A stretch of DNA of 41,307 nucleotides from Minisyncoccota bacterium (lineage in GTDB: Bacteria > Patescibacteriota > Microgenomatia > UBA1400 > PJMF01): the NCBI GenBank assembly GCA_018646985.1, contig JABGTR010000023.1, positions 1 through 41,307 on the forward strand, read 5' to 3'. This document shows positions 16,332-41,307 of this stretch, piece after piece. Under the pieces are notes generated by a model. It ran no database searches. It was not told the DNA's origin and saw only the letters and a program-made list of their open reading frames with translations. Position numbers and translations under genes: made by a program. Each line of letters opens with the position of its first letter. The stretch's first letter is position 1.

Positions 16332-16631
16332 CTAAATACCAGAGAACTTCAAACTCACCCTACCACCAAATACACTAGCAAATCTTTTTAGAAAAGATAA
16401 ACTAGGGGTTGTCTGCATGTTTTCTACCCTAGAGATCACCGATTGTTTGGTATCCATTTTTAGCGCCAACTCTTTTTGAGTTAGATTATGCTTTATTCTG
16501 GCCTCTATCATCGCTTTTGCAGCCTCATACTCTGGACGAAACTCTTTTAAGAGCCTCCTATGTTCAGGATCTTTTCTCAATTCTTTTTTATGATCTTCCC
16601 AAGGATAGAGTTTTTTTAGATTTATTTTCAT
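16332..16631 (-). CDS. HigA-like antitoxin (XRE HTH)
   Basis: NLTQKELALKMDTKQSVISRVENMQTTPSLSFLKRFA. Confidence 0.88.
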   Translation of the reverse strand: MKINLKKLYPWEDHKKELRKDPEHRRLLKEFRPEYEAAKAMIEARIKHNLTQKELALKMDTKQSVISRVENMQTTPSLSFLKRFASVFGGRVSLKFSGI

Positions 16632-16666
16632 AATTAGAAAATATCACAATTTTGCGATAAAAACAA

Positions 16667-17029
16667 CTAGTTTTCTACCTCTCTGAGTCTCTGTAGTGCT
16701 ACTCCAATTTCTTTCTCTGGAGTTCTTTGCGTTTTCTTTATAAATCCATGTAAGATTACAAAATATCCTTGTAAATATGCTGTGTAGAATATTCTAATTG
16801 TTCTTTTTGATCTAACTCTTAATTCCCACAATGATGTATTTCTAATTTTTTTAGTATGAGGCATGCCTATTTGAGAGCCATATTCTTCTAGCAATTTGAG
16901 CAAGTAATCTACTTTTATTTTTTCTCTTGGCTCCAGAGAGTTAATGAAATCAACAGTTGGCCTCTTTCCTGATTTTGATAAGTAATAATAAATTTTAAAA
17001 ACAGACACAAAAAGAGTATCTAAAACCAA
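16667..17029 (-). CDS. HigB/RelE-type toxin (phage Gp49-like); start probably downstream of the called TTG
   Basis: KIYYYLSKSGKRPTVDFINSL…MPHTKKIRNTSLWELRVRSKRTIRIFYTAYLQGYFVILHGFIKKTQRTP. Confidence 0.88.
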   Translation of the reverse strand: MVLDTLFVSVFKIYYYLSKSGKRPTVDFINSLEPREKIKVDYLLKLLEEYGSQIGMPHTKKIRNTSLWELRVRSKRTIRIFYTAYLQGYFVILHGFIKKTQRTPEKEIGVALQRLREVEN

Positions 17030-27445: not shown

Positions 27446-28033
27446 ATGCAGATTGAAACTCTCAAACTCGGTCAACTAGATACCAACTGCTACTTAGCTT
27501 GGTGTGAAATAACAGATGAAGCAATTATCATTGATCCTGCAGATGAGGGTGGATTTATTAGTGAAAAAATTCTTGAGTTAGGTCTAAAGCCAGTCGCCAT
27601 TATCCTCACCCATGGTCACTTCGACCATATTTTGGGCTTACTAGAGCTGAAGCTTAACTTTCCCCAGGTATCAATTATGATGCATGAAGCAGATCTGTTT
27701 CTGACTGAAAGCGTTCAAAAGCGAGCTCAACACTGGCTAAAAATGCAAGTCGCTCCTGCTCCCAAGATAGATAAGTTTTTAGTTGAAGGTGATCTGGTTG
27801 AGTTTGGACAAGAAGTTTTAACTATCATTCATACCCCCGGACATACCCCAGGCAGTATTTGTTTGCACGATGATCAGATGATGTTCACTGGAGATACGCT
27901 CTTCAGAGATGGGGTTATTGGCCGAACTGACCTCAGCTACTCTAGCCCCAAGAAAATGTATAAGTCGCTGGAAAAAATTAGAGAGTTGTCAGGATCACGA
28001 CAGATGTACGCCGGACATGGAGCTAGTTTTTAG
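27446..28033 (+). CDS. MBL-fold hydrolase (glyoxalase II/YcbL-like), apparently short C-terminus
   Basis: LTHGHFDHI, HTPGHTPGSICL, FTGDTLFRDGVIGRTDL; ends MYAGHGASF. Confidence 0.92.
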   Translation: MQIETLKLGQLDTNCYLAWCEITDEAIIIDPADEGGFISEKILELGLKPVAIILTHGHFDHILGLLELKLNFPQVSIMMHEADLFLTESVQKRAQHWLKMQVAPAPKIDKFLVEGDLVEFGQEVLTIIHTPGHTPGSICLHDDQMMFTGDTLFRDGVIGRTDLSYSSPKKMYKSLEKIRELSGSRQMYAGHGASF

Positions 28034-28302
28034 TCAAAGCTGAAGCTTAATTTCATCTCTAAACCTTGAGCAATTTTATATAAGAATGATAGTGATGGGT
28101 TGTAAGTACCAGACTCTAGTCTGGAAATTGCGGATTGCTTGGTACCTATTTTAGACGCCAGCTCTGTTTGAGTTAAACCTTTTTCTAATCTTTTTTCAAT
28201 TAATAAGTTTATTAAGTCATACTCTGGTCTTAGATCATCGTAAGACTTCTTGATCTCTTTATTTTTTAGAAGCTGAAATTTGAGTCGGTTGTAGCTTTTC
28301 AT
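28030..28302 (-). CDS. HigA-like antitoxin (XRE HTH), second copy
   Basis: GLTQTELASKIGTKQSAISRLESGTYNPSLSFLYKIAQGL; similar to the 16332 gene. Confidence 0.9.
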   Translation of the reverse strand: MKSYNRLKFQLLKNKEIKKSYDDLRPEYDLINLLIEKRLEKGLTQTELASKIGTKQSAISRLESGTYNPSLSFLYKIAQGLEMKLSFSFD

Positions 28303-28324
28303 AATAACTAGTATAACATATATG

Positions 28325-28627
28325 TTATGTATGGCACAATACTTTTAATGCTTTTCTGATTTCTCTATTAGAAATTTTTTGTTTCTTCTTGATAAAACCA
28401 TGTATTAAAATTATTTTTCCACTACTAAAACAATAAAATATTCTCACCTCTTGTTTTCCTCTAACCCGAAGCTCAAATAAATTGTCTTTTATTTTTCTAG
28501 AATGAGGCATCGAGAGTTGATATCCAAACTTCTCAAGCAAATCAGTTGTTCGTAATACCTTAGCAATTGTTTTTGGCTGAAGCTTGTCGATAAAATCCTC
28601 GACACTTAAACTAACAATGATTTCCAT
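28325..28627 (-). CDS. HigB/RelE-type toxin, second copy
   Basis: MPHSRKIKDNLFELRVRGKQEVRIFYCFSSGKIILIHGFIKKKQK; similar to the 16667 gene. Confidence 0.9.
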   Translation of the reverse strand: MEIIVSLSVEDFIDKLQPKTIAKVLRTTDLLEKFGYQLSMPHSRKIKDNLFELRVRGKQEVRIFYCFSSGKIILIHGFIKKKQKISNREIRKALKVLCHT

Positions 28628-37294: not shown

Positions 37295-38026
37295 TTAACT
37301 AAACCTACCTAACATCTCATCTAATTGCTGACGTCTCAAAACCAAACGCTCATCATTCTCAATTATTTCTTGAGCTTGCTGCAGATATTCATGAGCTAAG
37401 TTAAAATTTTTACCTTTAAAGTGTTCGGCCAAACGCAAATATCCTCCAGAAATCCAAACTTTACAATTATAGTCCGCATCAACTCCTGTATCCGCCGCTA
37501 ACTCTGCTAAAAGACTTTCAATAGCTGTCATTGCTGTTTGATCACCCAAAGCTAACTCGCAAAGTGCCAGGCGCAACTTCATCAATGCTAGAACCGCTGG
37601 TCGGTTATGCTCTGGACTGGGATAGTTTGTCATTGAGTGTACAGCTTTCTGATACATCTCTTTTGCCGGCTCTAATTCCCCTGATTCTTCTAAGAATTCG
37701 GCTAAGTTCAGCTGAGGTAAAGCTAGTGCTTGTTTATCTCCTGAATCTTCAGCAATCTCCACGCTGGACTTAACAATTGCACCCGCTAGTATCCAGTAAG
37801 GTTTAAATTTTTGTTGGCGATGGAGGTGTTTGAAAGTAATAAAAATAGAGTCTAATGCTTCAGCAAAACCCAGCTGGTCGTTTTCTTGGGCATAAGCCAA
37901 TAAAGACTGCATTCCCAACTCCAACGCTGATGATAGATTGTCACTTTCACGAGCTGCCTCTATTTGATGATGAAGCTCTCGTCCGGATAAATTTTTATCT
38001 TTTGTCATATTCATATAGTTTACCAT
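37295..38026 (-). CDS. TPR-like helical hypothetical protein
   Basis: 243-aa helical-repeat ORF. Confidence 0.65.
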   Translation of the reverse strand: MVNYMNMTKDKNLSGRELHHQIEAARESDNLSSALELGMQSLLAYAQENDQLGFAEALDSIFITFKHLHRQQKFKPYWILAGAIVKSSVEIAEDSGDKQALALPQLNLAEFLEESGELEPAKEMYQKAVHSMTNYPSPEHNRPAVLALMKLRLALCELALGDQTAMTAIESLLAELAADTGVDADYNCKVWISGGYLRLAEHFKGKNFNLAHEYLQQAQEIIENDERLVLRRQQLDEMLGRFS

Positions 38027-38030
38027 TGCC

Positions 38031-38056
38031 GGAACTAGTGGGCAGTGTTGGAACCT
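38031..38056 (-). repeat. Family-1 repeat R1
   Basis: ggaactagtgggcagtgttggaacct. Confidence 0.9.
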
Positions 38057-38059
38057 GGG

Positions 38060-38320
38060 TTAATACTGATCATGGGTCACTAAATCAAAAAAAATAAATA
38101 TTTCGTTGTTTTTAATACTCAAAACTCTTAAATCTCCTTTAATCCGGATGGCGTACTGTTCTGATCTTTTACCTTTAAGCTTATGTATCTTTAATGAGGG
38201 ATGCTGATGATTCTCTTGAAAGAGGCTAAATTGTTTAGCTAGTGCAATCTTAAGCTGAGGATCTTTTTTACAAAGTTTTTTTGCTTTTTTCTGAAATGAA
38301 TCTGTAAGATGAAACTTCAT
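38060..38320 (-). CDS. RelE/YafQ-like toxin
   Basis: FHLTDSFQKKAKKLCKKDPQL…HKLKGKRSEQYAIRIKGDLRVLSI. Confidence 0.82.
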   Translation of the reverse strand: MKFHLTDSFQKKAKKLCKKDPQLKIALAKQFSLFQENHQHPSLKIHKLKGKRSEQYAIRIKGDLRVLSIKNNEIFIFFDLVTHDQY

Positions 38321-38577
38321 AGCTTGCTAAAAAATTCCTCAGCATCTTTGACTTCTACGGTTTTGCCAGCCCCATATTCCTTAAGAGCCTCCAGGCCTTT
38401 TTCTTCAGTTTTTTTGCTCATCTCATAGATAGGAGTTGTCCCTTCTTTAAGAAAGTCTTCAGAAGCCTTGCTAATTACAAAACGGATGGTTTTGGGTAAG
38501 TTATAGCCAAATTGAGATCCATAACTGCTTAAAATGGCTGCTTCTTGATCTGTTAGAGAGAGTTGAACTTTAGTCAT
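38317..38577 (-). CDS. Antitoxin partner of the 38060 toxin
   Basis: 4-bp overlap with the toxin; small N-terminal DNA-binding-like region. Confidence 0.75.
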   Translation of the reverse strand: MTKVQLSLTDQEAAILSSYGSQFGYNLPKTIRFVISKASEDFLKEGTTPIYEMSKKTEEKGLEALKEYGAGKTVEVKDAEEFFSKL

Positions 38578-38641
38578 AATATTGACAATATAATACTAAA
38601 GCAATGTTTTGTCAATGATTATCAAATAATTCTTGACAAAA

Positions 38642-38667
38642 AGAACTAGTGAGCGGTGTTGGAACCT
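38642..38667 (-). repeat. Family-1 repeat R2
   Basis: agaactagtgagcggtgttggaacct; overlaps the stop of the 38666 gene. Confidence 0.9.
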
Positions 38668-39181
38668 ATTTTTTAACAAAAGAAATATACTTGATCCCAT
38701 CTACATATCCCCAGTAATCTAATGCCAAGAAAACTGGCGTAGTAAGCACTACATGGGTAATGAACATCAGTGGATAAAGTTGGTATGGAATCTGTACTAA
38801 AAGAGCACAAGCTGATAGCAGTAACCAACCCAATATAACTAAGAAGGTGGGAAAGAAATCTGGTTTTTTGTCTATTAAACGTTTGATTGTATCTCTTTTT
38901 TTATTCTCCTCCACCGCTTTTACAACTTCGTTCCAAGCATCTTGACCAGAGCTAAAAACTGCTGAAACAGAGAACCCATATAATAATATTCCGACTAAAA
39001 CTGGAAAGAAAAGAACGTAGTTTTCACCTTCCTTAACCCATTCATAATCTGCAGTGAAGAAATTTAATCCTGTCAGAAGAATGCTAATCATCACAACTAA
39101 GGATATTGTTTTGAAAAATTCTTTTTTGTTAAATTCTATAATTTGGTACATATCAACTTTCTCGTAGTTTAGCTTGCTCAA
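38666..39181 (-). CDS. Small membrane protein (~4 TM), unknown
   Basis: Hydrophobic segments in a 171-aa ORF. Confidence 0.7.
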   Translation of the reverse strand: MSKLNYEKVDMYQIIEFNKKEFFKTISLVVMISILLTGLNFFTADYEWVKEGENYVLFFPVLVGILLYGFSVSAVFSSGQDAWNEVVKAVEENKKRDTIKRLIDKKPDFFPTFLVILGWLLLSACALLVQIPYQLYPLMFITHVVLTTPVFLALDYWGYVDGIKYISFVKK

Positions 39182-39458
39182 TATATAAATCCAACAACTC
39201 CACCTGATCCCGATAAGTACTTAGTCTACTAAGCAGTTGAAAAACATTTTGTTCACCTGTTGGCAGGTTGCCAATGAACTCATCAGCCTCAACTTTTTTC
39301 CAAATCTCTGGATGCTGATCTTTTAGTGGTTCTATTTCAGCTATACTTTCAACAGATTCTTCCCGCAATGCCTCCAATTCTCCTACATCCATGGTATCGA
39401 GGTTTCTTTTGGGCTTAGTTTCTATAAATAACACACTAATAGATAGTATCTCATACAT
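39153..39458 (-). CDS. Hypothetical acidic protein; start uncertain (internal Met MDVGELEALREE is plausible)
   Basis: ORF overlaps the 38666 gene; called ATG directly abuts a terminator hairpin. Confidence 0.55.
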   Translation of the reverse strand: MYEILSISVLFIETKPKRNLDTMDVGELEALREESVESIAEIEPLKDQHPEIWKKVEADEFIGNLPTGEQNVFQLLSRLSTYRDQVELLDLYIEQAKLRES

Positions 39459-39460
39459 TA

Positions 39461-39486
39461 AAAAAGACCTATTTAAAGGTCTTTTA
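39461..39486. terminator. Bidirectional-type terminator hairpin
   Basis: aaaaaagacctatttaaaggtctttta: stem AAAGACCT/AGGTCTTT with flanking A/T tracts. Confidence 0.75.
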
Positions 39487-39497
39487 TTGCTTTTGCA

Positions 39498-39523
39498 GGG
39501 ACTAGTGGACGATGTTCGAACCT
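39498..39523 (-). repeat. Family-1 repeat R3
   Basis: gggactagtggacgatgttcgaacct. Confidence 0.9.
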
Positions 39524-39527
39524 ATTT

Positions 39528-39839
39528 TTACAAACTCAATCTAGTTTTACCTTGAGCATATTGGTTGATTAGGGTACTTAACAAAGTTTGATAAGGGATG
39601 TTGTTGCGCTTTGCTTTGGCTTTGACTTTAATCAAGTCAAGCTGATTAACTCTAATAGTAATAGGCTTAGAAAGTTTAAGCTCCAAGTATTTGGTTGCAG
39701 CTTCTGCAAGCATTTTTTTTGTTTGTTTTAGATCTGTGGCTTCTTCATACTCATCTCTCTCAAAGGCTTCTTCTAGCAACTGCTCTTCTTTATCTAAAAT
39801 TAAATTATTAAACGGATTTTTCTTTTGTTTATTTTTCAT
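39528..39839 (-). CDS. CopG/BrnA-type antitoxin-like
   Basis: ITIRVNQLDLIKVKAKAKRNNIPYQTLLSTLINQYAQGK ribbon-helix-helix-like C-terminus. Confidence 0.8.
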   Translation of the reverse strand: MKNKQKKNPFNNLILDKEEQLLEEAFERDEYEEATDLKQTKKMLAEAATKYLELKLSKPITIRVNQLDLIKVKAKAKRNNIPYQTLLSTLINQYAQGKTRLSL

Positions 39840-40123
39840 CGCCGACCTCCTTTTAGGTATTTCTTGGTAAATACTCTGCTTGGATATACTGTTTTTAAAA
39901 ATATTTCTTTTTTCTTCTTATTAATTACATATGGAACTGCATAAGCATAGTTATCAATTTCAATAATGTAAATCTTTTGATTGGTTCTTTGACTATTGGG
40001 GTGACTAATATCTGCTAAGATTTTTTCTTTAGCAATTGCTTTAATCACATCGTCAAAACAAACCTCTCTAGTAGCTCTTAATAATTCATTCTTTTCTAAG
40101 TTGAAATTAATATCAAAAGCCAT
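39836..40123 (-). CDS. BrnT/DUF4258-like toxin
   Basis: CFDDVIKAIAKEKILADISHPN…IYIIEIDNYAYAVPYV…IFLKTVYPSRVFTKKYL; overlaps antitoxin by 4 bp. Confidence 0.78.
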   Translation of the reverse strand: MAFDINFNLEKNELLRATREVCFDDVIKAIAKEKILADISHPNSQRTNQKIYIIEIDNYAYAVPYVINKKKKEIFLKTVYPSRVFTKKYLKGGRR

Positions 40124-40205
40124 AGCTAAATATTAGCACTACGTACATCTTTTGTCAATACAAAGCAAACAATTGTTTCAGTGGTAATTGCAGCCATAGC
40201 TTGCA

Positions 40206-40231
40206 GGGACTAGTGGACGGTGGTGGAACCT
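40206..40231 (-). repeat. Family-1 repeat R4
   Basis: gggactagtggacggtggtggaacct. Confidence 0.9.
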
Positions 40232-40235
40232 ATTT

Positions 40236-41123
40236 TTATTCTTGCTCTAACATCTTTTTTTCTGCATTCAAAAAAGAATCTACCTCAACATCAAGCAACA
40301 ATGCTCTCCATTCCCATACCCATTGAGGGACTTCCTCTTCAGGTATGTCTGCGGGGAAAACATCATCGATTGCCTTAATTAAATAACCCACTTCTGATGT
40401 GCCTGGTAAATCTTCTTTCATTGAAGCCACTATCTCCGCTTTTACATCTTCAAAATCAGCATAGGGGTATGAATACTTTGCAGCTAATTGATATATCTCT
40501 TCTTTTTTTGCCAGTTTCTCATAAAGAGGTTCAAAAAATACTTTATTGGGAATAAAAGTAACTCCAATAGCGGGAAGTAATCCATAACTCAAATATCTTC
40601 GCATAGCTCTTTGTGATAATTCTAATGCGCCAATCGACGCCCTAAGTATTTCTTCTTTAGTAACAATCTTAAATACGGGATGGTCATCTTCCCAAAGAAA
40701 AACTTTTTCTGGTTCAAGATCTGCATAAATCTTAATATCACCCAATCCAAGGCTTTCTAATAAAAAGGGCCTGACTCTACTCAATAGCCAAGAAACACCC
40801 ATAATATCCAGATCATCAATTTCTTTGTATAAACCAGCACTCTCCCGACCTTCTTGTAAATCATTAATCATTCTTCTGACACTATACCTTCCTTTAAAAT
40901 CTCTTCCATAAAAATGAATTTTTCTTACTTTCACTCTTGAGTTTGGTAGCGACTCTGGGTCGTCAACAATTAATGACGATTCACTTAGATCTGTCACCTC
41001 AGGCATATTAAAAGAGAAAATCAAATCAATTTCAAATTTCAGTCTCAATTTAGTAGATATCTCATAATCAAATAAATTAAAGTAAGCAAACATCATTTTA
41101 TTAAAATCTGGATTGGGGCTCAA
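40236..41123 (-). CDS. Hypothetical protein, probably missing its N-terminus
   Basis: Frame stays open upstream of the TTG (…RGKFIKAAENLSELIIGDLL-SPNPDFNK…) until an in-frame TAA inside the IS end hairpin. Confidence 0.6.
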   Translation of the reverse strand: MSPNPDFNKMMFAYFNLFDYEISTKLRLKFEIDLIFSFNMPEVTDLSESSLIVDDPESLPNSRVKVRKIHFYGRDFKGRYSVRRMINDLQEGRESAGLYKEIDDLDIMGVSWLLSRVRPFLLESLGLGDIKIYADLEPEKVFLWEDDHPVFKIVTKEEILRASIGALELSQRAMRRYLSYGLLPAIGVTFIPNKVFFEPLYEKLAKKEEIYQLAAKYSYPYADFEDVKAEIVASMKEDLPGTSEVGYLIKAIDDVFPADIPEEEVPQWVWEWRALLLDVEVDSFLNAEKKMLEQE

Positions 41124-41174
41124 TAAATCCCCAATAATTAACTCTGATAAATTTTCGGCGGCTTTGATAAACTT

Positions 41175-41195
41175 CCCACGACCTTACGGTCGGGG
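41175..41195. repeat. Imperfect hairpin at IS200/IS605-like element end
   Basis: CCCACGACC-TTAC-GGTCGGGG, immediately past the transposase stop. Confidence 0.6.
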
Positions 41196-41197
41196 TA

Positions 41198-41307
41198 TTA
41201 GTTTATTTCAAACAAAGTTTGCCCAGAATCTTTTTTACCCTGTTCCTTAATGTATTTTTTAATAATACTTTCATTGATACCCACAGTACTTACAAAATAT
41301 CCTTCAC
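41198..41307 (-). mobile_element. 3' end of an IS200/IS605-family (Y1) transposase gene, cut by the window edge
   Basis: Reverse-strand translation EGYFVSTVGINESIIKKYIKEQGKKDSGQTLFEIN*. Confidence 0.65.

Follow-up and report, generated by a model that had tools for sequence, protein, structure and literature searches.

A probable array of mobile gene cassettes behind a tRNA gene in Microgenomates genomes

The 41,307-nt stretch of DNA analysed here (the window; contig C6 of an 881-kb, 45-contig MAG, G000) contains a series of minus-strand genes interspersed with copies of a short repeat, which raises the question of whether these repeats bound mobile gene cassettes and into what such cassettes might be inserted. 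An earlier note on this DNA had described four near-identical repeats. They were recovered at 38032, 38643, 39499 and 40207 with one or two mismatches to the 25-mer given there, while 100 dinucleotide shuffles yielded a chance expectation of zero; the repeat is real and not a product of chance. The reported spacing of 611, 856 and 708 bp was reproduced with a 38-nt register. All four copies have the same orientation, reading with the minus-strand genes, and, as had also been stated, these genes end (38060, 38666, 39528 and 40236) about 4-5 bp from a site or inside it. Searching the 881-kb MAG, no other copies with up to three mismatches were detected. A profile search added a fifth copy of the same genome at C32:62548 (C32:62548-62605, L066:10549-10606), the centre of which is interrupted by a GC-rich hairpin of about 20 nt. 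Upstream of this fifth site lies a tRNA-Leu gene, to which the junction sequence has no match.

All features of the array are located on the minus strand. Site 1 (40201..40238), nearest the tRNA side, possesses an intact CCCTGCA junction and closes a cassette with a gene for 295 aa (40236..41123) that has no Pfam or NCBIfam match. The CCCTGCA junction of site 2 (39493..39530) is intact too, and the site closes a toxin-antitoxin-like cassette. Here, the earlier label of a BrnT-type module did not stand, as the putative toxin (95 aa, 39836..40123; phrog_38250) has no significant BrnT match and is a BrnT/RelE-like nuclease by arrangement only; its partner (103 aa, 39528..39839) is a CopG/BrnA-like antitoxin by a weak match. 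Directly after site 2 follows a terminator-like hairpin (AAAAGACCTTTAAATAGGTCTTTTTT, 39460..39486), and a near-identical hairpin is present after tRNA-Trp in G000 and G002. Site 3 (38637..38674) has a conserved core and a degenerate junction end and closes a cassette of two hypothetical genes, one for 101 aa (39153..39458), the other for a membrane protein of 171 aa (38666..39181) whose stop codon is the TAG of the site itself. Site 4 (38026..38063), again with a conserved core but with the junction end CCGGCAA, closes a toxin-antitoxin cassette. It comprises an antitoxin (38317..38577) of the MTKVQLSLTDQEAAIL.. family, which also occurs in arrays of G002, G017, G022, G024 and G032, and a YafQ/RelE-like toxin (38060..38320), for which the earlier RelE-type label holds weakly (PF15738, E=4.5e-5, below the Pfam gathering score). 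The four-site span proposed for the array was confirmed, but the array reaches further. Its last cassette contains a TPR-like gene (37295..38026) that two relatives likewise carry as cassette cargo, with homology to cassettes of G002 (71% over 685 nt) and G022 (70% over 681 nt); downstream of this gene no recognisable site of its own was seen. Since the junctions of two of the four sites are worn, leaving it intact only at 39493 and 40201, the copy in the window may be partly fossil. Two more toxin-antitoxin pairs at 16332-17029 and 28030-28627, judged by eye to combine an HTH with a RelE/HigB-like protein, lie outside the array and are not accompanied by sites.

In gene sense, the consensus of the site is AAATAGGTTCCAACATCnTCCACTAGTCCCTGCAA. 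Information content is high across about 36 columns and at background level on both sides, i.e. the site of about 36 bp is sharply bounded. With up to three mismatches, 13 of 190 genomes matched (own genome counted), compared to 2 of 190 for a reversed-pattern control, and where exact matches fell in named records, these were MAGs of Candidatus Pacebacteria or Microgenomates. A sequence-only profile detected sites in 24 of the 49 genomes of the family, while a profile made from 63 sites was positive for 30 of the 95 genomes of the order. At the class level, sites were found at E<=1e-5 in 26 of 385 genomes, 12 of them outside the order, a prevalence that is a lower bound because this sample was thresholded and strictly filtered. 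Some of the weakest matches outside the order may be due to chance, a number of them (for example G164, G195 and G279) having no tRNA close by. All genomes compared are MAGs or draft assemblies. The exact site pattern gave no match in the IMG/VR viruses.

The search in relatives revealed that the site recurs at gene 3' ends in arrays of a single orientation. Arrays hold one to seven sites, clustered usually at one locus per genome that is sometimes split over contigs, and none of 41 array contigs contains a site in opposite orientation. The 83 cassettes that were delimited measure 240-2113 bp with a median of 805 bp. For about 21 of 70 last genes, the internal TAG of the site is the stop codon, and most of the others end within about 30 bp. 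As cargo, YafQ/RelE, BrnT-CopG, PIN, Fic/SoFic, GNAT and AbiEii proteins were identified, besides many without an assigned family, and the families listed, which cover 97 cassette proteins, include no integrase.

With regard to the insertion point, wherever a tRNA gene was mapped upstream of an array, the array is located directly behind it on the same strand, the 3' end of the tRNA pointing towards the array. The anchor is tRNA-Trp(CCA) at 29 of 33 loci and tRNA-Asp or tRNA-Ser at the others (32 array contigs with 29 Trp, two Asp and one Ser, plus a secondary single site of G017 behind tRNA-Ser). Moreover, the final six to seven nucleotides of the site are identical to the end of the cognate tRNA, namely CCCTGCA for Trp and CCTCGCA in one Asp array. 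The three sites of the latter (G063) read as their tRNA-Asp does in 7/7 positions, compared to a mean of 4.5/7 to Trp tRNAs; comparing the last seven positions of the sites with their own tRNAs gives a mean identity of 5.6/7. In G368, a second array lies behind tRNA-Asp and its nearest site has CCCGCA, and the sites behind tRNA-Ser (G167 and the single G017 site) have the ends CCGCA/TCGCA. A check for att-type restoration of the tRNA demonstrated that the shared stretch comprises the terminal 6-7 nt only and that it follows the tRNA identity. Neither the tRNA anchor nor its match to the junction was visible to the earlier reader.

Within the family, tRNA-Trp(CCA) is situated between the array and a conserved core gene. 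Genus g16 (G017, G031) has the inverse arrangement with respect to the core gene, the tRNA still facing the array. In other families the neighbours can differ while the tRNA is kept, the array of G089, for example, adjoining secE/nusG; tRNA-Trp anchors were found elsewhere in G056, G071, G076 and G083, and also in G141, G137, G149, G250, G366 and G368. A gene next to tRNA-Trp encodes a conserved protein of about 440 aa (L057:5491-6807 and homologues, in 42 of 49 family genomes) without a Pfam or NCBIfam match. A conserved neighbour gene (MPELFD.. protein) was dismissed as a candidate recombinase, as it has no family match, occurs with and without arrays and gives way to other neighbours in G089.

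No tRNA or Rfam RNA was found within the window. The tRNA-Trp gene of G000 is located on a separate contig (C19:580-652), and the window ends at a contig break with the C-terminal end of an IS200-like (Y1) transposase and a REP-like hairpin (41170..41307, minus strand; 141-nt overlap with contig C44). Because this end is a repeated transposase, it allows no join between the two contigs, and the end of the window was rejected as a tRNA junction. The REP-like hairpin CCCRCGRCCTNACGGYCGGGG just after the transposase C-terminus (41175-41195) recurs near arrays or tRNA-Trp in G000, G034 and G013 (L143:99-119; L196:113-133; L064:8706-8726; L160:5548-5568).

The position of the sites might also suggest a regulatory or transcript 3'-end element which has spread along genes and is not a recombination site. 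It always lies at gene 3' ends, often gives the stop codon and is sometimes followed by terminator-like hairpins. However, the sites are confined to arrays behind one tRNA, their junction follows the tRNA, breakpoints lie at the junction, and neither an Rfam match nor a conserved RNA fold was found for the site, which makes this possibility extremely improbable.

The breakpoints emerged from an all-against-all comparison. Site-to-site homology extends over 663 nt between G017 and G035 (85%), 671 nt between G017 and G031 (79%) and 673 nt between G031 and G035 (72%). Cassette homologies mostly stop within one or two bases of the junction, and whole single cassettes are common to different genera, junction to junction. 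The order of cassettes varies as well, since in G000 the toxin-antitoxin cassette precedes the TPR cassette, while G002 and G022 have the reverse order. In G040, 119 identical nucleotides start from CCCTGC after tRNA-Trp on one contig and after an internal site on another. Two contigs of G001 share an overlap of exactly 141 nt that starts in the CCTGC of the tRNA; this fits an assembly fork located at the junction, or possibly one at the opposite end of the shared stretch. In G000, G001 and G002, a similar terminator-like hairpin is present both after the tRNA and after internal sites. The comparison of modules between genomes, which the earlier note had proposed, thus revealed variable content and order and a homology that breaks at the repeat junction.

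Because homologous cassettes start and stop at the junction, their order varies and the G040 segment begins both after the tRNA and after an internal site, it is quite likely that the array is made up of mobile gene cassettes for which the 3' end of a tRNA gene, as a rule that of tRNA-Trp(CCA), serves as the insertion platform, each cassette consisting of a gene module and a 3' site of about 36 bp. The previous reading as an undescribed cassette or recombination system is supported by these data, and the tests named for its refutation turned out in its favour. The recombination partner of a cassette site would be either the 3' end of the tRNA or a further site, strand exchange taking place in or beside the shared CCCTGC(A). 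The cassette would enter behind the tRNA, leaving the tRNA sequence intact, and repeated insertions would build the array.

Alternatively, ordinary islands that target tRNA genes might have accumulated in tandem and decayed, the units of the array being shrunken remnants of integrase elements with a leftover att repeat. A tRNA 3' end as target together with tandem direct repeats is typical of such islands, and published additive islands carry repeated tRNA-Lys 3' ends (PMC10872708). But the units are compact, intact genes abut the site and in some cases use its TAG as stop, tRNA identity covers only 6-7 nt of a 36-bp site whose core is not a tRNA copy, the families listed for the 97 cassette proteins include no integrase, and genera share whole single cassettes. 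This origin is therefore unlikely. Among the published structures found, additive islands that are anchored at a tRNA and contain repeated tRNA ends come nearest (PMC10872708). Additive fGI at tRNA genes and tycheposons have in common with the arrays a tRNA anchor, recurring direct repeats, a variable content and many unknown genes. In additive fGI, which extend up to 42 kb, the repeats are pieces of tRNA (PMC10872708), while tycheposons of 4-200 kb carry xerD. By contrast, the arrays are composed mostly of single-module cassettes of about 0.4-2 kb, each with its 36-bp non-tRNA site, and contain no recombinase. What they share with tRNA-targeting islands is integration at a tRNA 3' end, not an element-encoded integrase.

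A cassette array at a tRNA gene also invites comparison with integrons and CALIN (PMC9668308, PMC11551772). The systems are alike in their small gene-plus-site cassettes, often with a single gene, which are arranged head-to-tail in one orientation, in their cargo rich in toxin-antitoxin genes, in the exchange at the 3' site, in the fixed platform at one end and in the usual occurrence of one array per genome. On the other hand, the GTTRRRY/RYYYAAC pair is absent from the consensus, in agreement with the earlier statement that the repeat lacks the classical attC arms. The site has an imperfect dyad which is not supported by covariation, its DNA folds are no better than those of shuffles, and an attC-like hairpin was thus rejected. 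TIGR02249 (IntI) yielded no protein over the NCBIfam cut-off in 95 genomes, a strict search at E<=1e-42 that is informative only for the cut-off result and in which the control genomes were likewise negative; the nearest protein scored 207-224 against a cut-off of 265. The platform, too, is a tRNA 3' end rather than attI. With neither attC fold nor boxes, and with no IntI above the cut-off, the array is not an integron, and a divergent form of integron or CALIN whose attC sites are atypical is very unlikely.

It is conceivable, with a chance that we put slightly below even, that the arrays represent a separate kind of gene-capture system, widespread in one Patescibacteria class (Microgenomates), in which the tRNA would play the role of attI and the double-stranded 36-bp site that of attC, the heptamer would pick the tRNA and a tyrosine recombinase, chromosomal or from a helper, would act in trans. 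In open-licence papers, no description of such a system in Patescibacteria was found. Gene gain and exchange in the reduced, mostly epibiotic CPR/Patescibacteria are poorly known, and the array provides a concrete, searchable locus for it: the 36-bp motif behind tRNA-Trp flags acquired genes module by module, and toxin-antitoxin, Fic, GNAT or defence-like genes are numerous among them. If this is confirmed, an integron-like platform for gene capture would have arisen at a tRNA gene with no integrase residing there. The match between site and tRNA heptamer makes the recombination rule directly testable. Whether the system should count as a separate class hinges on identifying the recombinase.

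A linked tyrosine recombinase, as suggested in the earlier note, was not found at the arrays; in 49 genomes no PF00589 gene is located near a mapped array. As cassettes and flanks encode none, we infer that a Xer-type tyrosine recombinase works in trans. This Xer/IntI-type enzyme could be one of the genomes' XerC/XerD-like proteins or the XerA/integron-integrase-like protein of a minority. There is no conserved arm on the far side of the crossover, which is unusual for a simple tyrosine-recombinase site.

If the site was a Xer site and chromosomal XerC/XerD moved the toxin-antitoxin modules, the array would correspond to XerCD dif-type modules like those of Acinetobacter (pdif). At least one Xer-like recombinase is indeed encoded by all 49 family genomes and two by most, none of them near an array; a XerC-like gene is missing in G017 and a XerD-like gene in G035, possibly reflecting assembly gaps. 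Furthermore, ATGTT in the site weakly resembles the XerD arm, and the arrays have in common with pdif modules (PMC13141974) a similar cargo, small toxin-antitoxin-bearing modules bounded by recombination sites and the lack of a recombinase of their own. However, sequence and layout of the site differ from the 11-6-11 arrangement of the pdif sites tabulated in that paper, all sites have one orientation while pdif sites alternate, and the anchor is a chromosomal tRNA rather than plasmids. The site scores far below the dif consensus (dif matrix), and a location of the array at the chromosome terminus or dif was rejected, as the G043 locus lies about 120 kb from the skew origin. A chromosomal dif sought for comparison was not located. 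Taken together, dif-type modules are an improbable explanation.

The XerA/integron-integrase-like protein, which exceeded the NF040815 cut-off in two of three cases tested, was detected in nine genomes of the order. Eight of these nine have sites (Fisher p=3e-4, relatedness ignored). It is missing from most array genomes including G000, however, and none of the 12 genomes of other orders that have sites carries it. Hence, this protein was rejected as the dedicated enzyme. In several of the nine genomes its gene adjoins prmC, tsaD, dus or trmD (named by eye); such a position, seen for the XerA-like genes at L217:261-1073, L206:4627-5445 and L218:1224-2150 and on L277, L278 and L280, is unusual for a mobile integrase.
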